Source of the DNA: Alphaproteobacteria bacterium
GTDB lineage: Bacteria > Pseudomonadota > Alphaproteobacteria > UBA7985 > JAUIBT01
Direction: 5' to 3'
Assembly (NCBI GenBank): GCA_030428565.1
Contig: JAUIDR010000025.1
Coordinates: 1-44,813, forward strand
DNA length: 44,813 nt
The notes beneath the pieces are model-generated. The model saw only the letters and a program-made list of their open reading frames with translations, was not told the origin of the DNA and did no database searches. Below, piece by piece: positions 1-44,813 of the stretch (within the stretch, counting starts at the first letter, position 1; each line of letters starts with the position of its first letter). The translations under genes and the position numbers were made by a program.

Positions 1-651
1 TCCGACCATGCCAACATCAAATCACCTTGACGCTCTGTCTGACGCCCCATCGCCATCTGCATGTCCCCCGTTCAAATCGAGCTGGCAGAGAATCATGCAT
101 ACGCGACTTCGTCAACGGGCTGTTAAGATGGTCGCAATCCGTCCGGCAGGCATCGCTGATATTGTCAGCCTTGGTTGGGCATTCATTGAAATGCTGGCAA
201 CCGCTACGCTTGTGCTGATGCGCGCTGAAGCCGATAGCGCCAAGGCCAAAGGCGTGACAAGAAAGGTGACGAGAGAGACCGCGACGAGGGTAACAGCTTG
301 CTGCAAGATCAGGCAGACTGGGTCTAGCGGTCAGGGCCGCAGCGAAGTGCAAGTGGGCGGTCACGCGCTGTTTGCGAACGTTCGGTGTGCTCAATCCGCG
401 ATGCAAATCACGAAGCGTGGCGAAAATTGCGATTTTGGAGGGCTGGATTCGTGCTGACCTTCCGATTCGTGGCGAAAATTGTTAGAGTCGCCACATATTC
501 AACGCAATTCGTTTTCCCCTACCAGCAAACTTTTCGCGATTTCATGGCGGGGGCGGCGCAGAAATTTTCGCTGCATCAGTCCGCCCTCGGCGCGATTAAC
601 CCCATCCCAACGATGTATAGTGCGCCAGCGCGGGTCTGCCGATTTAGGTCG
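1..651. other. Leader region, no gene assigned
   Basis: I assign no gene here. Open frames exist on both strands, but they overlap one another, lack clear ribosome binding sites and have no recognisable domain. The reading frame of the gene at 652 stays open upstream to about 385, but that extension reads as arbitrary sequence ahead of a normal signal peptide, so I treat it as untranslated. From about 416 onward the stretch holds short repeats and an inverted repeat, annotated separately, that look like regulatory DNA for the gene at 652. Confidence 0.5.
416..571. promoter_or_regulatory. Cluster of GCGAAAA motifs with direct and inverted repeats
   Basis: A 14-bp sequence containing GCGAAAATTG occurs twice as a direct repeat, at 416-429 and 468-481, 52 bp apart. 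The core GCGAAAA recurs in reverse orientation at 531-537 and 565-571. The second direct copy is the left arm of a perfect 7-bp inverted repeat, GTGGCGA (469-475) and TCGCCAC (488-494), with a 12-nt loop. All lie within 240 bp upstream of the start at 652. They could be regulator binding sites or leader RNA structure. I know no regulator with this site and see no convincing -35/-10 pair. Confidence 0.4.
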
Positions 652-3534
652 ATGGTAAAGCCCGCTGCTTCGTTTGCGAGCGCGCGTACCGGGTTCGGGC
701 GGGCCGCGCAGCTTGGCACCGCAGCGGTTTTGGCCTTAGGCCTGACTGTTGGCCAAGCTTTGGCGCAACAAGCTCTTGAGCCACCAACGCCCATACCCGA
801 TTCAGATCAACCCGCGGCGCCAGAGAAGGCCGAAAGCGACGATCCGGTCGCGCGCGCCCTACGGCAGCGCTTACAGGCATGGTCACAACGCAATGGCAGC
901 GACGCGAAAACGGTATTTGACGACGGGCAAAGCGAGGAGAGCCGTGCCGCGGCGGCAGCGCTGAGCGAAGCCAAGCAGGCGCGAGTGGCTGAGGCGGAAG
1001 GTCAGAGCGTCAGCAGCGGTGGATCTTTGCCAGACCCTGAAAATGGGGCCGACCCGGAACAATTGCCCGCACCAACCAGCGATGAAGATCGTGAAGCGGT
1101 CGCGGCTGCCAGCGATGATGACCCGGACTTGGCGCAACCCAATGCGGTTGAGACCCAATCGCTGACCGGCGATCGTGAGTTGGACGCCATGTTGAGCGAT
1201 AGTCAGAAGCTGCTGCTCGTCCAGGCGATCCAAACCTTGCAGGTCATCAACAAGGAAGACGAACAGGCTCGTCAGCTCGCCGCGACTTTGACCGAAAAAC
1301 AAAAGCAAGCCCTGCTGAAACTGTTGCGCACCCTCGAAGATGTGCAAGCCGCTCAAGCTGAAGGCCAACGCGGTTTTACGCCCGATCAGCGGGCCGCAGT
1401 TGTGGATGTCTTGGAGACCTTGGAAGGCGAGCAAATCGCCATCGAGCGTGCACGCGAGCGCGCCCAGCAGCGGGCTGCTGCCCAGAAAGCGGCTGCGGCT
1501 CAGGCTGCTCAGGCAGGCGCGAACCAAGCGGCAAGCGCACAGGGGCTGTCGGGGGGGCTTCTCAATGCAGAGCAAGAAGCAGCACTTAACCGTGGCTTGG
1601 AAAAGTTGCGAGCGGCGCAGCGGGTGCAAGCCGAAGGCGGCGATGCGCAGGCGGCTTTGAATATGAGCGCCGCCGAACGGCAAGCTTTGTTGGCTGTTAT
1701 CCAGCTCATTGAAGGCCTGCGCGAACAGTTAGGCGATCAAGCCAGTGCCTCCAATTTGCGCGAGGAGCAAAAACAGGCCCTGGTGGCAGCCGTGACGCGT
1801 CTGCAAGAAGCACAGCGGCAACGCGATGCCGCGCCAACGACGCAGACAGCAGCGGCGGGTGCTACGGGCAATGCCGCTGCTACCAATGCTCAAGCGCGGC
1901 CAAGTGGGCCCTTGAACGGTGGCCTGCTGGCGACTTTGGGCGACAAGCGCGACGTCAACGCTGATCTTGCGCTCGAAGGTCCGGTAAAGGACGCGAGCAT
2001 GGTGGGGCGCCACAAGACCTTGCTATACACAACCCTGCGCGCTCCCGGTTCGGTGCAGACCGGCGTCAACTACCGTTCTGGAACCATGGCTTCTGGTCCG
2101 TGGGAAGCCAACTTCGGCATTGATGTTAGCGGTGAAATCAGCAGCCTGTTGGACGAGGGCGGCCCGGTGGGGAACTACCGCATTGTGCCCGACGCTACAG
2201 TAATGCGCCGCCTGACAAACACTATCAGCCTGAAGGCTGCGGCTCAGGGCGAATTTGTCAAAAACGCGGGCGCGGTTTTGGGCAGTTTGGGCTTGGTCTA
2301 TAGTCGTGGCAATACTGAAGTGACCGGCAATATCTTTGGCAAATACGAATACCTGGCGATGCCAGACCTGCCCGACGACAATCCCATGTCCTTCGTCGAT
2401 GCTACGACCTTTGGGGCGGATATCGGCGCCGCGCGTACCGATATCATTTTGGGCCCGACCAGCACCGACATCAGCGCTAAGGTGACGCTCTCGCATATCA
2501 TTGATCGCGACCCGACACTGGCCTTTGCCTCAAAAGCCATCACCAAATTAACCTCGGAAATGAGCCTTGGGGAGCGGGTTGCCAAAGCCCGTTCTGAATT
2601 CATCCAGCAGATTGGGGCGAGTGCCTACGGGCCACGGTCGGCGGGCGCATCGCCGATCACGGGCTTCGATGACATTTTTGCGCCCGAGGGCCAAAGCGCC
2701 GCCCCGCGAGGACCAATTGTGCGCCGAGGCGATGATATCTTTTCGCCCGAAGGGGCGGTGATCGGAGAACAGACCAGGGATTTGGTCGCAGAATTGCGCG
2801 GGCTTGACTTGGATGCTCTGCCCTATGACCTGCGCGAGGAGACGATCCGCAACTTCATTACCCAGCTCATTCGTCTGGGATATAGCGACGCCAAGACGCT
2901 GGAATTGAGCCTGGATCGCAACGCAGCCGGACTCATCACGGGCCGTGCCTCTGCGCGTTTACCCCAGATCTTCACGCCTAGCGTGGTTGGCGAGGCGCGC
3001 CTGTCCTACGCGGGGCAGTTTGTGCCAGCGGGCACCTTGGCGTTTAGCAATGACAGCTATATTCAGGAATTGGGCGGTCGGTTGATGGCCGCTTGGCAAG
3101 CTGCTGAGCGCACCACCTTGGCGGGGCAAGTCAACGCCTCAGTTAGCGGCGACTTCGCACTGAAATCGACCGCCGTCGCGCTTGAAGCGACCCAGGCATT
3201 CGCTCCCTACGCCAGCGCGTCACTGCGGGTCAAGAACACGAATTCCTACCTTTCGGGGCGCTATCTGCAGAGCCTCAATGAGCTGCGTGCAAGCCTGCGC
3301 GTGCGCGACGATGTCTATGGCGAATTCGAAGGCAGCATTGGCCGTGAGTTCGACGGTGATTTGACGCCGGGCGCCTTTGTTGCCGCCGCGGCCTACGCCA
3401 AAGGGGTCCGCAATGTTTTAAAGACAGGCCGTGATGCCGTGTTCGAGGCAGGCCTAGAGCTTCGTTATGATCCCGCCCTTGAACTGGACCCCCAACTAGG
3501 GGCCTTCGTTAAGGCCACATTTGAGCTAAACTGA
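652..3534 (+). CDS. Exported protein with six helical repeats and a beta-rich, probably outer-membrane C-terminus
   Basis: I do not recognise the family. The start at 652 is chosen because it opens a normal signal peptide (hydrophobic core, then ALAQ near residue 38) and has AGG a few bases upstream; earlier in-frame ATGs at 613 and 544 are possible. An acidic linker precedes six related helical units of about 30 residues starting near residues 181, 213, 242, 304, 338 and 369, with a pattern like L(S/T)xEQxxALxxxLxxLE. An Ala/Gln-rich spacer lies between units 3 and 4. From about residue 430 the sequence alternates polar and hydrophobic residues like beta strands. A helical insert near 640-750 carries a duplicated DDIF-x-PEG motif (residues 673 and 694). 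The protein has 960 residues and ends FELN. It probably anchors in or spans the outer membrane; this is inferred from pattern only. It is co-directional with the next gene, 59 bp apart, with a terminator after both. Confidence 0.75.
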   Translation: MVKPAASFASARTGFGRAAQLGTAAVLALGLTVGQALAQQALEPPTPIPDSDQPAAPEKAESDDPVARALRQRLQAWSQRNGSDAKTVFDDGQSEESRAAAAALSEAKQARVAEAEGQSVSSGGSLPDPENGADPEQLPAPTSDEDREAVAAASDDDPDLAQPNAVETQSLTGDRELDAMLSDSQKLLLVQAIQTLQVINKEDEQARQLAATLTEKQKQALLKLLRTLEDVQAAQAEGQRGFTPDQRAAVVDVLETLEGEQIAIERARERAQQRAAAQKAAAAQAAQAGANQAASAQGLSGGLLNAEQEAALNRGLEKLRAAQRVQAEGGDAQAALNMSAAERQALLAVIQLIEGLREQLGDQASASNLREEQKQALVAAVTRLQEAQRQRDAAPTTQTAAAGATGNAAATNAQARPSGPLNGGLLATLGDKRDVNADLALEGPVKDASMVGRHKTLLYTTLRAPGSVQTGVNYRSGTMASGPWEANFGIDVSGEISSLLDEGGPVGNYRIVPDATVMRRLTNTISLKAAAQGEFVKNAGAVLGSLGLVYSRGNTEVTGNIFGKYEYLAMPDLPDDNPMSFVDATTFGADIGAARTDIILGPTSTDISAKVTLSHIIDRDPTLAFASKAITKLTSEMSLGERVAKARSEFIQQIGASAYGPRSAGASPITGFDDIFAPEGQSAAPRGPIVRRGDDIFSPEGAVIGEQTRDLVAELRGLDLDALPYDLREETIRNFITQLIRLGYSDAKTLELSLDRNAAGLITGRASARLPQIFTPSVVGEARLSYAGQFVPAGTLAFSNDSYIQELGGRLMAAWQAAERTTLAGQVNASVSGDFALKSTAVALEATQAFAPYASASLRVKNTNSYLSGRYLQSLNELRASLRVRDDVYGEFEGSIGREFDGDLTPGAFVAAAAYAKGVRNVLKTGRDAVFEAGLELRYDPALELDPQLGAFVKATFELN

Positions 3535-3593
3535 TGTGTTACAAAAACTGGAATCGCGCTAAAACGCGATCACAAGCAAAAAGGAAAACCGCA

Positions 3594-4760
3594 ATGTTCA
3601 ACTGTGGTTTGAAAAAAGCTGGAGCTTCTGAACTTAAGCTGGAGAAGTCCGAGCAAAATGTTTCCTCGTCAGGTTGGTCCGCGACGCTGCGGCGTTGGCG
3701 CTTGAGCGCTGGCTTTGGCCTGGGTATGGCCAGTTTAGCCGCTGTCTTGCCGGGCCTGGCGCAAGCGCAGGTCATTTTGCAGCTCGATTTAGCGCTGTGG
3801 ACACGATTTAAAGGCACCGCGGTCGCGCTGCTGCAAGATGTGCAGCCTAATGGCGACGGCTTGCTGAGAGCCAACAAAACAAACGTCAACAATTACAATG
3901 CTAGCGACCAGATTGGCGCAGGCTCTTGGTTGCGTCTGGCTACGATTGCCCGCGATCAAGAAGCCATGCAAAAGGGGTTGCGCGCCATTGAAGTGACGCT
4001 CTCTGGCTCTTTGCCCGATGGCAGCTTTGTCCATGTTGAGCGTCTGGACAATACGCGGGTGCGTCGCGTCACGGGTCTACGTGGCAAATACTTGGACGCG
4101 TCTTTGCTGGGTGATTTTTGTTTGGGCCTACTTGTCGCTGACGCGGGCCAGCCGATTTCGGCCGAATACGGTCGTCGCAATTCGCCGCCGTTGGCGCGTA
4201 CCCTGCGCTCGCTAAAATTCCAGGCCCAGGCGCTGTTGCAGTTTTCGGCCTCTCGACCGGATCAGCTGATGACCTTGGCCGGTATGTTCCATTCTTGCGG
4301 CCTGCTGTTAAAGGATCAAAAGGCGCAAGCCATGGCGATCGCTTTTGCACAGCAAGCGGCCAAAAACACCACCTACGCGGGCGTTTGGACCTTCGGTGGC
4401 AAGACCGATACCAGTTTGGCCGCCAGCACCAACAAAGCGGCGCTAGACCTGTTGTCGTTGAAGTACGATGACACCTCTAAGCAACGCATTGAAGAGATCA
4501 TTGGCATGACCTCAAGCTGGTTGCTGGAGCGGATCGATTCTGACGGTGAGCTCAATTCAAAGGGCAATGCCTATAGCTGTGTGTCAAAGCGGGCCTTTGA
4601 CAGCAAACTATCCGGCATCAACCTGCGCGATTTGCTGTTCTCACTCTATCGCGGCGGCTTCTATCTGGATCGTGGCGACATGCTGGGCGCGGCCGAGAAG
4701 GTGGTCAATCGCCTGAATGCCAGCAACGTGCCCGACGGCTTCTGTTTCTTCAGGGCTTAG
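3594..4760 (+). CDS. Exported all-helical protein of unknown function
   Basis: A 388-residue exported protein I cannot name. The start at 3594 is preceded by AGGAAA at good spacing. The frame is open upstream to the previous stop, but that part lacks a ribosome site. A long basic n-region leads to a hydrophobic stretch ending LAQAQ near residue 62, so the protein is probably secreted to the periplasm or beyond. The mature part is helical, with recurrent turns such as LPDGSF and DSDGEL between helices. That resembles the alpha/alpha toroid of some glycoside hydrolases and polysaccharide lyases, but I see no catalytic signature, so this is only a fold guess. Four cysteines in the mature part, the last three residues from the end, could form two disulfides. 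Gene order and the shared terminator suggest it works with the preceding surface protein. Confidence 0.7.
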   Translation: MFNCGLKKAGASELKLEKSEQNVSSSGWSATLRRWRLSAGFGLGMASLAAVLPGLAQAQVILQLDLALWTRFKGTAVALLQDVQPNGDGLLRANKTNVNNYNASDQIGAGSWLRLATIARDQEAMQKGLRAIEVTLSGSLPDGSFVHVERLDNTRVRRVTGLRGKYLDASLLGDFCLGLLVADAGQPISAEYGRRNSPPLARTLRSLKFQAQALLQFSASRPDQLMTLAGMFHSCGLLLKDQKAQAMAIAFAQQAAKNTTYAGVWTFGGKTDTSLAASTNKAALDLLSLKYDDTSKQRIEEIIGMTSSWLLERIDSDGELNSKGNAYSCVSKRAFDSKLSGINLRDLLFSLYRGGFYLDRGDMLGAAEKVVNRLNASNVPDGFCFFRA

Positions 4761-4793
4761 CAGCCAGCGGCATTTCTTGGACGGAATTCTGAA

Positions 4794-4834
4794 AAAGGCT
4801 CGGTTCGATCGGAACCGGGCCTTTCGTTTTTTTT
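4794..4834 (+). terminator. Intrinsic terminator of the exported-protein pair
   Basis: A long hairpin (left arm from AAAGGC at 4794, right arm ending GCCTTT at 4824, GATC in the loop, one mismatch) is followed by a run of eight T at 4827-4834. It closes the two-gene unit. Confidence 0.9.
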
Positions 4835-8044: not shown

Positions 8045-8136
8045 ACTTGACTGCACAGACTGGCGATACCGACCGGTAATTAGATTGGCAGGCACGCCAA
8101 AGGGCCTAAAGGCAAGTAGATAAGGAAAGCTGGCAT

Positions 8137-9510
8137 ATGAGCCTGAAATTTCACAACACGCTGAGCGGCAAGCTGGAGACCTTTGAGCCCATTGATGCCA
8201 ACAAGGTGCGCATGTACGTCTGCGGCCCGACCGTCTATGACTTTGCCCACGTCGGCAATGCGCGGCCCATTGTTGTCTTTGATGTGCTCTATCGTTTGCT
8301 GCGTCACGTCTATGGCGCGTCGTCGGTACAGTTCACCCGCAATATCACCGACGTTGATGACAAGATCATTGAGCGCGCTCTGGAGAGCGGCGAGAGCATC
8401 GAAGTTATTACGCAGCGCACCACCGATACGTTTCACGAGGACATAGCGGCGCTGAATGCCTTGCCGCCGGATTTTGAGCCGCGCTGTACCGGCTATATTC
8501 CCCAAATGGTGGCCATGATCGAAGAATTGATTGAAAACGGTCACGCCTATGCCGCCGAAGGCCACGCTCTATTTGCTATCGACAGCTATGACGGCTATGG
8601 CCGCCTGTCCAAGCGCGACATGCAAGACATGATTGCCGGGGCGCGCATCGAAGTTGCGCCCTATAAGCGCAATCCGGGCGACTTCGTGCTTTGGAAACCG
8701 TCGAGCGATGAGCAGCCCGGCTGGCCCAGCCCCTGGGGGCGTGGCCGTCCTGGCTGGCACATCGAGTGCTCGGCCATGGCGCGCGATACGCTGGGCGCGA
8801 GTTTTGATATCCATGCTGGCGGTCTTGACCTGATTTTCCCGCACCATGAGAACGAAATTGCGCAATCGTGCAGCGCCAATGGGCAGGAGATGGCGCACAC
8901 CTGGATGCACAACGGCTATATCACTGTAAACGGCGAGAAAATGTCCAAGTCGCTGGGCAACTTCTATACCGTGCATCAGCTGCTGGAAGAGGGCATTCCC
9001 GGCGAAGCCATTCGCATGGCGCTGTTGTCGGGACACTATCGCAGCCCAATGGACTTCTCGAAGGAGAAGATCGCAGAGGTTAAGACCCAGCTCAATCGCA
9101 TGTATCGTGCGCTGGAAGGCGCTGAGGATAGCGGCGCTGCCCAGCCAGCCGACGCGGTTCTAGCGGCGCTGAGTGATGACCTCAATACGCCGCAGGCCTT
9201 GGCTGAACTGCATGCCTTGGTGACGGAGATCAACAAGGCGGATGCAGGAAACAAACCCGCTTTGCAGGCGCAGCTTCGGGCCTCGGCCAATCTTCTGGGC
9301 TTGCTGGAGCAAGAACCCAAAGCCTGGTTCCAAGGAGCCAGCGCCGGGCAGCTATCGGCGGATGAGATAGAAGCCATGATTGCCGCGCGCATCGAGGCAC
9401 GGGCGGCCAAGGACTTCGCCAAGGCCGACGCGCTGCGTGACGCGCTGGTCGCCGACGGTGTTGAGCTGCTGGACCGACCGGGTGGCAAGACCGAATGGCG
9501 GCGGCTTTAG
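8137..9510 (+). CDS. cysS: Cysteinyl-tRNA synthetase
   Basis: Charges tRNA-Cys with cysteine in the cytoplasm. The 457 residues match the usual length. Visible hallmarks are the zinc/substrate Cys29 in MYVCGPTVYD, the HIGH-type motif as HVGN directly after it, the HHENEIAQS segment that supplies further zinc ligands, and an intact KMSKS at 268-272. The start at 8137 is preceded by AAGGAAAG at suitable spacing. The next gene, a small phosphatase, begins three bases after the stop, so the two are almost certainly co-transcribed and perhaps translationally coupled. Confidence 0.96.
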   Translation: MSLKFHNTLSGKLETFEPIDANKVRMYVCGPTVYDFAHVGNARPIVVFDVLYRLLRHVYGASSVQFTRNITDVDDKIIERALESGESIEVITQRTTDTFHEDIAALNALPPDFEPRCTGYIPQMVAMIEELIENGHAYAAEGHALFAIDSYDGYGRLSKRDMQDMIAGARIEVAPYKRNPGDFVLWKPSSDEQPGWPSPWGRGRPGWHIECSAMARDTLGASFDIHAGGLDLIFPHHENEIAQSCSANGQEMAHTWMHNGYITVNGEKMSKSLGNFYTVHQLLEEGIPGEAIRMALLSGHYRSPMDFSKEKIAEVKTQLNRMYRALEGAEDSGAAQPADAVLAALSDDLNTPQALAELHALVTEINKADAGNKPALQAQLRASANLLGLLEQEPKAWFQGASAGQLSADEIEAMIAARIEARAAKDFAKADALRDALVADGVELLDRPGGKTEWRRL

Positions 9511-31953: not shown

Positions 31954-33300
31954 ATGCCCCTAAAACGACGGTTCAAATTGTCCAAAAAATCGGCGCGAGC
32001 GGAGGGGAGCCCGCCGCTCGGTTTGGCCGAGCTGATCGCGATTGCGTTGGGTGGCATGATCGGCGGCGGCATCTTTACCGTGCTCGGGGTGGGGGTCGCC
32101 CTGATTGGCGTCTGGACGCCGCTCGCGATCGCGCTTGGCGGCGGTGTTGCGGGCTTGGCCGCCTATTCTTATGTCAAATTAGCGCTGTATTTTCGCGATG
32201 AGGGCGCGACCTATGCCTTTTTCAAGCGCAGTTTCCCCAATCACGATTTTGCCGCTGCTCTCATCGGCTGGTGGGTCGTTTTCGGATACATCGCGACCAT
32301 CGCGCTTTATGCCTTCACTTTTGCATCCTACGCCTTGGCCCCCTTCGATGTGGGCGACTGGGCGCGAAAACTGGTTGCGCTGGCCGTCATCGCCGCTTTT
32401 GCGGGCATCAATGTTTGGTCAACGCGCGGTATGGGGCGCTTGGAAGATTTCTTAGTCTACACAAAGATTGTCATATTGCTGGTGGTGGCCGGTGTCTTGC
32501 TGGGTAACGCCGACGGCGGTCCCAGGGTATGGCAGGCGCTGTCGAGCACGCCGCCGCCGGTGTTCGGTCTTGTGACGATCGCAGCAGTGACATTCGTTGC
32601 TTACGAGGGGTTTCAACTGGTGATCCATGCCATGGAGGAGATGGTCCGCCCAGAAGTCAACATTCCTCGTGCGATTTATTCCGCTGTAGGTCTTGCTACG
32701 CTGGTCTACGTCGTGATCGCGGTTGGCGCCATTCTTGCCATCCCGCTGCAAAGCATCATTGAGACCCAGGAATACGCTCTAGCCGCCGGTGCAAGCGATG
32801 TGTTGGGCGAAGCCGGGCGTAGCTTGGTCATCGCCGGCGCCTTGCTCGCAACCATGAGCGCCATTTCGGGGACGCTGTTTGGAGCCTCCCGCCTTATGGC
32901 CGTAATTGCGCATGATCGCTATTTGCCCTGGGCGCTGGCGCAGCGGGACGATGGTATCCCAAGGCGCGCGGTTCTCACAATGGCCGCCGCGTCGGGGGGA
33001 CTGATTATCATCGGCGACCTGCGCCTTATCTTGGAGTTCGGTTCCATCACCTTCTTGTTGGTGTCGATCTTGATGGCTTGGGCGAACCACAAGCGTCGCT
33101 TGGAGACGCAATCGCACCCGGTCATGACGGTGCTCGCTATGGCGGGCTTGGGCGCAGGGGCCATCTTGATCTTGATCTACGAGGCCCGATACGAGCCCTG
33201 GCAGCTTGCTTTTGTGATTCTGTTGTATGTGCTGCTGACCGTCGGCGCTTGGGGCTATGCTGGCCGCCAAACGAGGCGGCCAAGCCAGGGTAGCGCTTAG
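31954..33300 (+). CDS. APC-superfamily amino-acid/polyamine permease
   Basis: A 448-residue, 12-helix-type inner-membrane transporter. The first helix carries the family hallmark IALGGMIGGGIFTVLG (substrate-binding unwound region), and helix 6 has AAVTFVAYEGFQLV. Downstream EEMVRPEVNIPRAI is the conserved cytoplasmic loop of amino-acid permeases. The substrate is unknown. No strong ribosome site is seen before 31954. A minisatellite lies in its upstream region. It converges with the class V PLP gene. Confidence 0.88.
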   Translation: MPLKRRFKLSKKSARAEGSPPLGLAELIAIALGGMIGGGIFTVLGVGVALIGVWTPLAIALGGGVAGLAAYSYVKLALYFRDEGATYAFFKRSFPNHDFAAALIGWWVVFGYIATIALYAFTFASYALAPFDVGDWARKLVALAVIAAFAGINVWSTRGMGRLEDFLVYTKIVILLVVAGVLLGNADGGPRVWQALSSTPPPVFGLVTIAAVTFVAYEGFQLVIHAMEEMVRPEVNIPRAIYSAVGLATLVYVVIAVGAILAIPLQSIIETQEYALAAGASDVLGEAGRSLVIAGALLATMSAISGTLFGASRLMAVIAHDRYLPWALAQRDDGIPRRAVLTMAAASGGLIIIGDLRLILEFGSITFLLVSILMAWANHKRRLETQSHPVMTVLAMAGLGAGAILILIYEARYEPWQLAFVILLYVLLTVGAWGYAGRQTRRPSQGSA

Positions 33301-33400
33301 CGCAAAACACGAACGAGTAGCAACACGAGTGAGCATGGACTTGCGTTAGAATTCAGTCAGCTAGAGCGGATGGGCTGTTGCGACACAAGCACCGGACGCT

Positions 33401-34654
33401 CTAGGCTCCGCTCAGTTCCTGCATGACCGACAAGAAGCGGGCGACTTCATCGCGGTCGTTGTAGTGGCATAGCGAGACCCGAACGCAGGTCTCCATGCCC
33501 AGCGGCTGCAAAATATTGGCGGAGTAGTGGTCGGCTTTGCGGGTGTGGGTGCGGATGCCCTGCGCGTTCAGCGCCTCGACCAGATCCGCTGAAGCCCAGC
33601 CATCAAGCGCGAAAGATACCAAGCCTTCACGCAAAGGATTGTCCGCGCCTGCGACGATGGTCACACCGGGTAAAGCCGCTAGGCCCTTCAAGTTGTCGAC
33701 CCCATAGAGCATGGCGTCGGTCAGGGACTTTTCATGCGCATGAATGGCGGCTCCAGCGGCCTCGATACGTGCGCGCCGATCTTGACCGTCGGTGAAATGG
33801 CCGCCGAGCCATTCCATGTAGGCCACCACGTCCGAGAGGGTGGCGTATGAGCCGGTATCGCGCGTGCCCAGCTCCCAGTTTAGTTCTGGGCCTCCGATCA
33901 GGGCGTCGTGGGGCAAACGCTCGAAGCGCTCGGAGATCCAGGCCAAGCCGTAGCCATGGCGGGAAAACATTTTGTAAGGCGAGATCACGTAGGCGTCGAT
34001 GTCATAGGCGGCAATGTCGATATGCCCGTGCGCGGCGTGCTGAATGCCATCAACAATGATGAAACAGTCCGGCGCAACCGCGCGTATGGCTTTGGCAACG
34101 GCGGCGACATCCACCCCCATGCCGGAGACTGGCGAGGTGTGCAAGATGGTGGCAACGCGGGTCTCTGGCGTCACCTTGGCGGCGTAAGCCTCGGCCGTGA
34201 CAGAGCCCAATTTGGCGTCGTGCTCAACGTTGATATAGGCTTTGCCTGCAATCTTGGCCCAGCGTTGGGCGGCGCTGCGTGAGGCGGGGTGCTCAAGGCT
34301 ACAGCCGAGCACATCGCCTGCGGGCGTCTCGACGATGGCATTGCAGATCAGGCGAAACAAGAGTTCGCTGCCACTCTCGCCGACAAAAACCTGTCCGTTC
34401 GGCGCATTGAAGAACAGCTTCATGTCGGCCTTAGCCTTGGCGATGGTGTCCACCAGCGCTTGCGAGCCCGGATTGGCGCGCCCTTGATTATCGGGAATGG
34501 CAGCAAAGCGCGCCGAGGTCTCGACAACCGATTTAAGGGTCAGCGCACCGCCAGCGTTTTCAAAGAAGATGCGCGGGCCTTGAACGGGACAGGCGTCAAC
34601 CTGAGCAAAGCGGTCGCGCACAGCTTGCATGAGGCCGGGTTGGTCTTGAATCAT
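33401..34654 (-). CDS. Class V aminotransferase (cysteine desulfurase-like family)
   Basis: A 417-residue PLP enzyme. The Schiff-base region reads VISPYKMFSRHGYG, preceded by the cofactor-binding IIVDGIQHAAHGHIDI. The N-terminal IFFENAGGALTLKSV replaces the YLDNAATT of true cysteine desulfurases, and no mobile catalytic-Cys loop is apparent, so it belongs to the broader cysteine-desulfurase-like group whose substrates are mostly unknown. The start at 34654 is preferred to 34696 because family sequence begins just after it. No iron-sulfur assembly genes are adjacent. Confidence 0.82.
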   Translation of the reverse strand: MIQDQPGLMQAVRDRFAQVDACPVQGPRIFFENAGGALTLKSVVETSARFAAIPDNQGRANPGSQALVDTIAKAKADMKLFFNAPNGQVFVGESGSELLFRLICNAIVETPAGDVLGCSLEHPASRSAAQRWAKIAGKAYINVEHDAKLGSVTAEAYAAKVTPETRVATILHTSPVSGMGVDVAAVAKAIRAVAPDCFIIVDGIQHAAHGHIDIAAYDIDAYVISPYKMFSRHGYGLAWISERFERLPHDALIGGPELNWELGTRDTGSYATLSDVVAYMEWLGGHFTDGQDRRARIEAAGAAIHAHEKSLTDAMLYGVDNLKGLAALPGVTIVAGADNPLREGLVSFALDGWASADLVEALNAQGIRTHTRKADHYSANILQPLGMETCVRVSLCHYNDRDEVARFLSVMQELSGA

Positions 34655-35546: not shown

Positions 35547-37727
35547 ATGATTCTGCGTCCCTTTTTGGTCGCCCTTGGCTTGGCTGCATTCTTGTCAGGT
35601 TGTGCGGAAACTCTCAAGCTCCAGGAGCTGGCAAGCAATTCTGGCGTGCCGGTCGAACCGGCTAGTTCAACGGGCTTGCCTGAAGTTGACCTGGAAACCG
35701 AGCGCGAGGCTAATTCCGGTCTTATGCAAATCAAATGGTCTGCGAGTGCCTTTGACGGGACGGGTGTGACCTTGGCTGTGGTCGATTCTGGCATTGATAT
35801 GGACCACGAGGAGTTCGCGGGCGCGATCCACGCGGATTCCTACAATGTCGCCAGCAGCAACAACGATCTGACCGACGAACTCGGGCACGGCACCAACGTC
35901 TCCGGCGTCATCGGCGCGCGTGAAAACTACAAAGGGCTGGTTGGTGTATCGCCCAATGTCAGCCTTATGGTGCTCAAGACCGACCGCGACGGCGTCATTT
36001 TCGAGAGTTCGATTTCTCGGGCCTTTCGCTGGGCGGACGATCATGGGGTGCCAATCACCAATTTGTCGCTGGTGTCGAACCGGGATCTGCTTGGCGGCAC
36101 CATCGAAGTCATCCGCGACGCCATGCAGGCGGGCATGTTGGTGGTGGGCGCTGCCGGTAATGATGGCCTCGCCGAACCTTCTTGGCCAGCGAGCTTTGCA
36201 AGTTTCGAGGGCCAAGGGGCAATTTTGGCCGTCGGTGCGGTTGGCGCGAATGGCACCATCAGCAGCTTTTCAAATCGCGCGGGCAGTGCCAAGGCGATGT
36301 ATTTGGTGGCGCCCGGTGAAAACATTGTCACCACAAGCATGGACGGCAATCTTGCCTTGGCGAGTGGCACTTCGGTCGCCGCGCCCTTCGTTTCAGGCGC
36401 CGCTGCCGTGCTCTTGTCAAAGGATCCGCATTTGACCGGCGCGGACCTTGCAAAAATCTTGCTGACGACTGCCGAAGATTTGGGTGTGGCGGGCGTCGAT
36501 GATATCTATGGCCACGGTTTGTTGGATCTGGAAAACGCACTTCGTCCGGTGGGCTATACGCGCATCATCAATGGCGCCACGGTCTCCAGCGCGGGCAGCA
36601 CGACGGATCAATCCAGCGCCAGCTATTCCAGTAGCCTCAACACAACGGCGCTGACGGCGGCTCTGCAGAGCACGTTGGTGCTGGATGATTTTGATCGCAG
36701 CTATCAAGTGGACCCGACGCTGGGGGTCGTTCCGGTCGCCACCAGCCTGCTGCAGCGCTGGTCATCCCAGCCGGTCTATGGCTTCAGCCCGGCGGCAACG
36801 CGCGAGACGGTGGCCGCGCTTGATCTACAATTCAGTGAGAGCCAAAGCGCGCCGATCAATTTCAGCGTTGGCGGCGAATTTAGTCCAAAGCTCCACTTCG
36901 AGGCCGCCATTGGCGATATGAGCGCTTGGAAGGGTGTGGAAAGAAGCGCGGTTCAACAGCCGCTGGCTGGTGCAACATTGCATAGTTTTGATCGCTTGCA
37001 AGATCAGGCCCTAGCCATTGGCGGGCGCTATGAAATCAGCCCCCATTGGCAAGCCGAGACCCGCATTGCGCGTTCCCTTGGTTTTGAAGAAGACGTGTGG
37101 GGGCCTGCTGAACAGACCAGCGTGCAGGCAAGCCTGGCCTACGATTCGGCCTTGCTTGATTTTGAGCTTTCAACAGGGGTGCTGAACGAGTCTAACAGTT
37201 TGCTGGGCTCAAAAATCGAAGGCGCATTTGGTGGTTATAGCGACGAGCAAAGCCAGTACCTTGCCTTGCAGGGACAAAGAGCGCTGTTTGGCGGCGTCAG
37301 CCTACAAGGACAAGTCAGCTTTGCCCATAGCCGCGCGAGCAATCCTGGTGGTTTGATCGCCGCACAAAGCGGGCTCTTGAGCTCTGGGTTCGATTTGGCG
37401 GTGGCCAAAGAGGGCCTCTTGAACCGCTCTCAGCAGTATTCAGATCGCCTGGCCTTCTCGCTCTCGCAGCCCTTGCGGGTCATGTCTGGCCAAGCCTTGA
37501 TTGATAAGCCCGTTTCCCGTGATCTGGATGGGAATGTCACGCGCGCTCAACAGCTCATCGATCTGAGCCCCGAAGCGCGTCAGCTCGATCTGTCGTTGGC
37601 CTATGGGGCCTTCGATGCGCAAGCGCAGTCCGGTTTTGATTTCATGGCAGGGCTCAGCCTCAATCCGGGGCACATCGAGCAGGCGCCAGAGCTGACCTTG
37701 GGCCTGCGGTTTAAGCGCGAATTTTAA
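35547..37727 (+). CDS. Lipoprotein subtilisin-like (S8) protease with C-terminal barrel-like domain, autotransporter type
   Basis: A 726-residue surface protease. A lipoprotein signal ends in LSGC (Cys19). The S8 catalytic set is complete: Asp80 in VVDSGID, His114 in ELGHGTNVSG, oxyanion Asn205 in GAAGNDG and Ser276 in ASGTSVAAP. The protease domain ends near 330, a Ser/Thr-rich linker follows, and residues ~390-726 alternate like outer-membrane beta strands and end in the terminal Phe (KREF) recognised by the BAM machinery. This plan resembles the lipoprotein autotransporter proteases NalP and SphB1, although the passenger is shorter and I cannot confirm the autotransporter domain. No ribosome site precedes the ATG; an A/T-rich TTATAT lies six bases upstream, so a leaderless start is possible. 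Confidence 0.82.
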   Translation: MILRPFLVALGLAAFLSGCAETLKLQELASNSGVPVEPASSTGLPEVDLETEREANSGLMQIKWSASAFDGTGVTLAVVDSGIDMDHEEFAGAIHADSYNVASSNNDLTDELGHGTNVSGVIGARENYKGLVGVSPNVSLMVLKTDRDGVIFESSISRAFRWADDHGVPITNLSLVSNRDLLGGTIEVIRDAMQAGMLVVGAAGNDGLAEPSWPASFASFEGQGAILAVGAVGANGTISSFSNRAGSAKAMYLVAPGENIVTTSMDGNLALASGTSVAAPFVSGAAAVLLSKDPHLTGADLAKILLTTAEDLGVAGVDDIYGHGLLDLENALRPVGYTRIINGATVSSAGSTTDQSSASYSSSLNTTALTAALQSTLVLDDFDRSYQVDPTLGVVPVATSLLQRWSSQPVYGFSPAATRETVAALDLQFSESQSAPINFSVGGEFSPKLHFEAAIGDMSAWKGVERSAVQQPLAGATLHSFDRLQDQALAIGGRYEISPHWQAETRIARSLGFEEDVWGPAEQTSVQASLAYDSALLDFELSTGVLNESNSLLGSKIEGAFGGYSDEQSQYLALQGQRALFGGVSLQGQVSFAHSRASNPGGLIAAQSGLLSSGFDLAVAKEGLLNRSQQYSDRLAFSLSQPLRVMSGQALIDKPVSRDLDGNVTRAQQLIDLSPEARQLDLSLAYGAFDAQAQSGFDFMAGLSLNPGHIEQAPELTLGLRFKREF

Positions 37728-43667: not shown

Positions 43668-43742
43668 GGTCGGTTAGCTCAGCGGTAGAGCACTTCGTTG
43701 ACATCGAAGGGGTCACAAGTTCGATCCTTGTACCGACCACCA
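43668..43742 (+). tRNA. tRNA-Val (anticodon GAC), CCA encoded
   Basis: A complete cloverleaf: acceptor GGTCGGT/ACCGACC, D arm GCTC/GAGC, anticodon stem CTTCG/CGAAG with loop TTGACAT (anticodon GAC, valine), variable loop GGGTC, T arm ACAAG/CTTGT with loop TTCGATC, discriminator A and encoded CCA at 43740-43742. A -35-like TTGACT lies at 43624. An integrase gene pointing toward its 3' end begins a likely inserted element, so the 3' half is the probable attachment site. Confidence 0.97.
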
Positions 43743-43833: not shown

Positions 43834-44813
43834 TCAAATGGTGTTCCATCCATCCAACGCGAGTCTTCTGCGATCCACTGTCCGGGTGTAGTGCGAGGCC
43901 ATTTTTCCACCGCTCCAACCGAACATGGCTTCGAGCTGTGCTACCGTCGCGCCAGCTTCGGCGGCGCGTGTCGCTGCCATCTTGCGAAGGCCGTGGGCGG
44001 ATTTCTTGACGCCTGCGGCGCTAGCGGCGGCCCTAAACATGTTGCCGAAAGAATCGTTGGCAAATGGGCGCCCTAACTCCCCTATGATGAAATGCAGGTC
44101 GCCCGTTGGCCCTGCATCCAAGGTCGCCTGGAGGGGGGCAAGGATTGGGATCGTTACCTCTGTCCCGGTCTTTTTGGTTTTGATCGTCGCAACGCCGTCC
44201 TTGACATGTTGGCGGCCTAAGATGACCGCATCGCCTCTGCGTAGACCTGTGTAGAGCAGGACGTCAAACCAGACCCTTTCTCTGGTCCCTCGTGGCCACC
44301 TTTCTTCGTAGCGTGCCACGTCCTCCTCCGTCCACGCGGGGAAACCTTCAGTCTTGACCAACTTGAGTCCCTTGACGCCGGCGGTTGGATCAATTTCGAC
44401 CATCTCAGCTTCCAGAGCCCAAGCGAACATTCCGCGCATCGTTTTTAAGAAACTGTTTGCCGCGGCGGGCGTCGCCTTGCGGCGCTCCCGCCCGTCCACA
44501 ATTGTCTTCTTGGTGATCTTGTTGAATGGTTCATTGCCAGCGCTGTCGATGACGTTCGCGAAGATCGCGTCGCGCTGTTTTCGCGTGGCTTTGGAAAGGC
44601 CAAGATAGGCGCTCGATGTTCGGTATTGCATGATCAGCCACTCTAGCGATTTTGAGTCTGGACCTGTTTTCGCCGGCTTCTTCGCTCCCCATTTCAACGC
44701 CCGCATGTAGGCTTCATCGAAGGCCTTGTCGTAGAGGTCCGGCAGGCGGATGCGCTTGCCGTGTTTGCGGCGGAAGTAGTAGCGGACCTGCCCGTGGCGG
44801 CTCCGCTCCTTGG
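43834..44813 (-). CDS. Tyrosine recombinase (phage/island integrase), N-terminus cut by window edge
   Basis: A site-specific integrase. The internal Met at 44706 is not the true start: the frame continues to the last base of the window and reads KERSRHGQVRYYFRRKHGKR there, the typical N-terminal DNA-binding segment of proteobacterial island integrases. A SAM-like core-binding domain follows (KATRKQRDAIFANVI, then FLKTMRGMFAWALE). The catalytic domain has the first Arg in LLYTGLRRGDAVIL, Lys in IKTKKTGTEV, HGLRK with His and the second Arg, the HxxR-type region ending GWSGGKMASHYTRT, where Tyr is the likely nucleophile. It lies 92 bp from tRNA-Val and is transcribed toward it. Confidence 0.92.
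   Translation of the reverse strand, partial: KERSRHGQVRYYFRRKHGKRIRLPDLYDKAFDEAYMRALKWGAKKPAKTGPDSKSLEWLIMQYRTSSAYLGLSKATRKQRDAIFANVIDSAGNEPFNKITKKTIVDGRERRKATPAAANSFLKTMRGMFAWALEAEMVEIDPTAGVKGLKLVKTEGFPAWTEEDVARYEERWPRGTRERVWFDVLLYTGLRRGDAVILGRQHVKDGVATIKTKKTGTEVTIPILAPLQATLDAGPTGDLHFIIGELGRPFANDSFGNMFRAAASAAGVKKSAHGLRKMAATRAAEAGATVAQLEAMFGWSGGKMASHYTRTVDRRRLALDGWNTI

Follow-up and report, generated by a model that had tools for sequence, protein, structure and literature searches.

Two adjacent plus-strand genes near one end of an alphaproteobacterial contig encode exported-type proteins that, judging by their sequences, well support the recognition of two new protein families, and that are so far confined to one genus within the genomes searched. 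The novelty is that of two new families within an ordinary exported architecture: gene 1 carries an export-type N-terminus, a region of degenerate repeats and a C-terminal region with a beta pattern, and gene 2, second in order, encodes a shorter protein with an export-type N-terminus and a strongly constrained mature part. In the window, that is, the whole stretch of 44,813 nucleotides analysed here, the pair and its surroundings comprise the following features:

390-600, plus strand: conserved upstream DNA (promoter or leader region), non-coding by its substitution pattern
652-3534, plus strand: gene 1, from ATG 652 to a stop ending at 3534, 960 aa
gene 1 residues 1-38, plus strand: signal-like stretch with a hydrophobic start
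gene 1 residues about 39-160, plus strand: acidic low-complexity linker, net charge -17
1141-1908, plus strand: gene 1 repeat region (residues 164-419), six degenerate units by eye, probably helical
gene 1 residues about 430-960, plus strand: amphipathic beta-rich, barrel-like domain
2668-2754, plus strand: two DDIF-(A/S)PEG motifs, at residues 673 and 694, within the barrel-like domain
3594-4760, plus strand: gene 2, from ATG 3594 to a stop ending at 4760, 388 aa, exported-type
4794-4834, plus strand: intrinsic terminator 3' of gene 2, a 13-pair stem followed by T8

The first-pass annotation of this DNA had described two exported genes 59 bp apart, and both the coordinates and the signal-like starts are confirmed here. 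An alternative ATG for gene 2, at 3534, overlaps the stop of gene 1. Over the 62 nucleotides 5' of ATG 3594, however, differences between the window's genome and its relative G002 amount to 7/20, 7/21 and 8/21 by codon position and show no periodicity, which rules out the start at 3534, while a 600-nucleotide stretch of gene 2 compared in the same way gives 29, 5 and 114 changes (200 positions of each). Since this aperiodic segment and a AAGGAAAA stretch common to both genomes precede ATG 3594, the gap of 59 bp between the two genes is the right one. The frame of gene 1 is likewise open upstream of ATG 652, back to 385, and an N-terminal extension to that point is ruled out because positions 400-599 lack codon periodicity (22/67, 18/67 and 14/66 differences by codon position, the values for gene 1 being 22, 14 and 55, 100 of each). 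The terminator placed after the pair stands in two of three genomes, as a 13-pair terminator also follows gene 2 in G001, but none was found in G002 upon scanning 9150-9420. As the GC contents of gene 1 (60.8%) and gene 2 (56.2%) are near that of the window (58.2%), composition gives no support to a foreign origin.

Neither protein matched a described family. Pfam searches at E up to 10 returned nothing for gene 2 in all three orthologues or for gene 1 in both of its orthologues, NCBIfam (E up to 10) nothing for the two window proteins, and PHROGs (E up to 1) and a profile search of PDB sequences (E up to 10) nothing for either. The earlier statement that the proteins have no recognisable family is thereby upheld, and no match to a well-described unrelated family emerged. 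Pfam's silence even at this permissive E means that TPRs, known export porins, GH8, alginate lyases and PgaB-like domains all go unrecognised in the pair. For gene 2 specifically, for which a toroid fold had been suggested, family profiles of alpha/alpha-toroid polysaccharide lyases or glycosidases gave no match (Pfam, E up to 10, 3/3 orthologues); for gene 1, no recognisable TPR/SLR repeats or known export-porin domain appeared (Pfam in 2/2 orthologues and NCBIfam, E up to 10). We found no published description of the pair in a narrow literature search, on orphan outer-membrane genes in Alphaproteobacteria, which proves nothing in itself.

The description of gene 1 as a repeat-plus-barrel-like protein is borne out to the extent that both its repeats and its beta pattern exceed chance. 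By eye, the repeat units begin near residues 181, 213, 242, 304, 338 and 369, the one at 304 being the weakest. Compared against itself, the region yields 84 pairs of sequence windows scoring at least 28 versus 9.6 (sd 7.3) in shuffled sequences, and 28 pairs scoring at least 33 versus 1.9, with none of 300 shuffles reaching either count; the best single score, 43, was matched by 5 of 300 shuffles. The G002 protein behaves similarly, with 64 pairs at or above 28 (0/300), 17 at or above 33 (1/300) and a best score of 41 (11/300). A separate test with five shuffles gave 7 pairs versus 0, 2, 0, 0 and 0, a number of shuffles too small to rely on. In the C-terminal region (residues 430-960, about 530 in all), 171 amphipathic-beta windows were counted on the window protein against 81 (sd 18) in shuffled sequences, using a simple heuristic with hand-set thresholds rather than a trained predictor; no excess was seen in the rest of gene 1 (24 versus 41, sd 12), in gene 2 (53 versus 50, sd 14) or in the phosphoenolpyruvate carboxykinase PEPCK (73 versus 78, sd 17). 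Hydrophobicity autocorrelation in the beta region is negative at lags 1, 3 and 5 and positive at lags 4 and 6 (|z| 2.1-3.3). The lag-2 value, which a beta pattern should make positive, is not significant (z 0.8 in the window protein, 0.2 in G002); this counts against a barrel, as does the last residue, an Asn, outer-membrane barrels usually ending in Phe or Trp. A helical period, expected at lags 3-4, is not seen in the repeat region, and this in turn counts against helices. Because of these lag-2 and lag-3-4 results, we use both 'barrel' and 'helical' in a predictive sense throughout. Both DDIF-type motifs are kept in G002, one of them as DDIFSAEG, and neither the window protein nor that of G002 contains a cysteine. 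Gene 1 evolves faster than gene 2, at 67.6% identity to G002 in the repeats and 55.7% in the beta region, and its AlphaFold model, built on a two-row alignment, has a pLDDT of 27.9.

Gene 2 presents the opposite picture in its mature part. The hydrophobic starts of both proteins end by eye in A-x-A-like sites (G-x-A in G002 gene 2), with cleavage of gene 2 expected near residue 58. Residues 1-58 have diverged to 41% identity with G002; the mature protein retains 90.3% with synonymous sites saturated, and the 304 residues readable in G001 are 96.1% identical at a dN/dS of 0.015. PEPCK, the sole cross-genome control, stands at 88% (G002) and 92% (G001). Four cysteines of the mature protein (176, 235, 329 and 384) are invariant in all three orthologues; of the cysteine-paired protein previously described, the cysteines themselves are secure, while their pairing as disulfides is putative. 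The gene 1 linker (-17) and mature gene 2 (+7) carry net charges of opposite sign. The AlphaFold model of gene 2 (three-row alignment) reaches a pLDDT of 37.1, and Foldseek returned no match to it at E 0.001, the best being GH116 (E 0.32, TM 0.25), with TPR, 14-3-3 and designed helical proteins next in the list at comparable E; with a model of such low confidence, this list carries no weight for the fold.

All clear matches to the pair fall in the window's genus. Gene 2 was matched in 3 of 96 relatives and 3 of the 11 genomes of the order, gene 1 in 2 of 96 and 2 of 11, where for many genomes part of the first-look candidates was scored (9/20, for instance, for gene 1 in the relatives). In G001, which is 86% complete, gene 1 was not found, and as the contig begins inside gene 2 its absence and an assembly gap are indistinguishable. 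Across a class sample of 385 genomes, with 3 to 5 candidates scored in many of them, the gene 2 profile at E up to 0.1 gave 13 matches, two in genus members and 11 weak ones (<15 bits), and the barrel profile at E up to 0.01 gave four, two in genus members and two unrelated by eye. The latter two (E 0.004-0.006) were rejected, since the ORFs containing them look, on inspection by eye, NAD-epimerase-like and HlyD-like. In a phylum sample, scored to the same depth, 1 of 398 genomes matched, the window's own; this sample overlaps the class sample and may lean towards that class, to which all 21 genomes listed belong. A gene 2 pattern scan of genome contigs, which reaches close relatives only, found two loci, and these add no genome to those above. 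Viral contigs gave no match, nor did plasmids for the barrel; one plasmid match to gene 2 (E 0.05) was discarded as antisense to a predicted AAC(3) gene.

The two genes are neighbours in G002, the sole relative in which both are readable: gene 1 ends with its stop at L006:8001 and gene 2 begins at 8061, preserving the 59-bp gap. No ATG stands there where the gene 1 start would align, and a TTG at L006:5089 was chosen instead. The conserved DNA upstream of gene 1 extends across both genomes (window 390-586 versus L006 4848-5044, 79% identity), which alone among the 11 genomes of the order give a strong match, all other hits having E of at least 0.09. Its predicted RNA shows no excess folding (z -0.48) and no Rfam match. 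Two copies of a 19-nucleotide near-repeat (411-429 and 463-481) lie within it and may be due to chance.

In G002 the pair stands 3' of a LysR gene divergent from a LigB-type dioxygenase, and a convergent GMC oxidoreductase follows; it is more likely that LysR serves the divergent dioxygenase rather than the pair. In the window's genome, the LysR homologue lies on another contig, C28, with about 360 bp left between it and the contig end; the corresponding contig of G001 also stops, about 300 bp past LysR. The end of C28 and window 1-126 have a 15-base terminal repeat in common and resemble opposite ends of a single insertion sequence, the ends alone having been read. On this basis LysR very probably lies upstream of the pair in the window's genome as well, with an insertion in between, and the contig break next to LysR would be explained. 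Window 1-126 itself represents one end of an element, probably an insertion sequence, that is present in multiple copies: its first ~125 bases are listed at 14 places in the genome (98-100% identity), one of them being the window's own, and of the 13 other copies 6 begin no more than 40 bases from the first base of a contig. Since the first part of an ORF at 8-457 consists of this element end, that ORF was not accepted as a gene. A 75-bp block 3' of LysR is 84% identical between G002 (L006 4599-4673) and the window's genome (L038 150-224) and is partly visible by eye near the G001 contig end.

Downstream of the pair, the window and G001 have in common a ZIP-like transporter (below the Pfam cut-off), a Fur-family gene, GluRS and CysRS, which are absent from this position in G002 and therefore point to rearrangement. 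Elsewhere, a dispersed repeat of ~120 bp, 84-85% identical among its copies, occurs between two convergent genes in the window (33291-33411) and at L038 7793-7913 and L039 4766-4888 and 2975-3081, and lies on both strands in G001. The window further holds a subtilase (S8) of 726 aa at 35547-37727, whose Pfam match covers residues 71-324 only and leaves about 400 C-terminal residues without a match at E up to 1e-5, and a tRNA gene (43668-43739) adjoined by a phage-type integrase (43834-44706), a possible boundary of an integrated element.

As to function, we tentatively propose, by analogy, that gene 1 is a porin of the outer membrane bearing a helical arm and gene 2 its exported partner, together working like the outer-membrane end of a synthase-dependent exopolysaccharide system, a reading that is plausible and may well be wrong. 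The C-terminus of gene 1 would form a beta-barrel in the outer membrane, its acidic linker and helical repeats a periplasmic scaffold, and gene 2 a soluble, disulfide-bonded partner that probably binds or enzymatically processes a polymer passing the barrel, most likely a glycan. Such a layout would copy the outer-membrane end of PgaA and PgaB, BcsC and BcsZ, or PelB and PelA in a stand-alone two-gene unit. The order of domains in gene 1 (signal, repeats, C-terminal beta region) counts for this reading, as do its barrel-like pattern and lack of cysteines, the spacing kept in G002, the constraint on gene 2 and the opposite charges of linker and partner. The silence of Pfam, the low-confidence models, the lag-2 and lag-3-4 results, the final Asn, the failure to find a synthase nearby and that to find gene 1 in the G001 assembly count against it. 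On this reading the barrel would be closed, the repeats would be helical and periplasmic, and the two products would be physical partners acting on a glycan. The first-pass annotation had gone further, to a complete envelope unit perhaps concerned with polysaccharide. Its exported two-gene unit, with no recognisable family, a repeat-plus-barrel-like member and adjacency in G002, withstands analysis; the toroid fold stays conjectural and the completeness is not borne out, nor is the polysaccharide link, as no synthase or glycosyltransferase family was found among 27 window ORFs (two of them without any family) and three G002 neighbours at E up to 1e-5. The closest candidate for such a link, at a distance of 15 kb, is a DegT-type aminotransferase, of a family that includes nucleotide-sugar enzymes.

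A genus-specific structural or surface component, such as an envelope scaffold, matrix or adhesin anchor, would account for the one-genus distribution in the genomes searched, the very strong constraint on gene 2 and the failure to recognise a catalytic family; the gene 1 arm would tether the outer membrane, and gene 2 would be a non-enzymatic matrix or surface protein. Codon usage speaks weakly against this somewhat doubtful alternative, as relative adaptation bears no sign of high expression for gene 2 (0.656) or gene 1 (0.650) next to BipA (0.752) and PEPCK (0.700); two transporters score lower still (0.612 and 0.634), and the reference set of 13 window genes excludes the pair and holds the controls BipA and PEPCK. 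It is unlikely that the barrel instead imports a nutrient, with the exported partner capturing or trimming it as in SusC/SusD pairs: uptake pairs also combine a barrel with a helical exported partner, and transporters or catabolic enzymes make up several of the window neighbours, but no TonB-dependent receptor, plug or SusD domain was detected (Pfam, E up to 10), no lipobox is seen by eye in gene 2, and the long N-terminal repeat arm would be unlike a plug. Least probable is that gene 1 exports gene 2 as cargo like a two-partner system, which would suit the order, spacing and co-conservation of a barrel-like gene and an exported protein but not the lack of any POTRA, ShlB or TPS domain (Pfam, E up to 10) or a gene 2 product that is small, has no beta excess and is unlike beta-helical cargo.

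An orphan gene 2 constrained like a housekeeping enzyme (by the one control, PEPCK) beside an orphan barrel-like protein suggests an important, genus-limited envelope function. Should the pair truly be a polymer porin and its enzyme, outer-membrane export pairs would be extended to one without a linked synthase. Bolder, and improbable as a whole, is the idea that the two new families make up a self-contained outer-membrane device for export or processing that works without a linked synthase operon. Its helical-repeat arm would be new, as would the fold or activity of its exported enzyme, and one alphaproteobacterial genus would either have evolved it or be the only one to have retained it.

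For the porin-and-partner reading, three known systems serve as comparison, in which PgaA and PgaB export and process PNAG, BcsZ is a periplasmic cellulase, the exported partner in the BcsC system of cellulose export, and AlgL the alpha/alpha-toroid lyase of alginate export. Because the family tests fail, no synthase was found nearby and neither fold is predicted with confidence, we liken the pair to these systems in how it may work and claim no membership. The pair as read would have the same parts as AlgE/AlgK/AlgL, namely a barrel, a helical-repeat scaffold and an alpha/alpha-toroid lyase, yet Pfam recognises neither an alginate lyase nor AlgE in it at E up to 10, and the repeats and barrel, which are separate proteins in alginate export as outlined in PMC9384988, are joined in gene 1. 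According to the sections of the same source on the other systems, alpha/alpha repeats are joined to a porin in PgaA, BcsC and PelB, with PgaB and PelA as enzyme partners (PMC9384988). Like the pair, BcsC/BcsZ combine repeats and a barrel-like domain with a second, exported protein, but gene 1 has about six short degenerate repeats versus the 19 TPRs predicted in BcsC (as given in that part of PMC9384988), and the pair has neither a GH8 match nor a cellulose synthase found nearby. PgaA/PgaB differ in that gene 1 has no TPR or porin family match, gene 2 no recognised deacetylase or hydrolase domain, and no synthase family was found adjacent; as far as they are treated in PMC9384988, they nonetheless resemble the pair both in uniting helical repeats and porin in one protein with a separate exported partner and in presenting an electronegative periplasmic surface.
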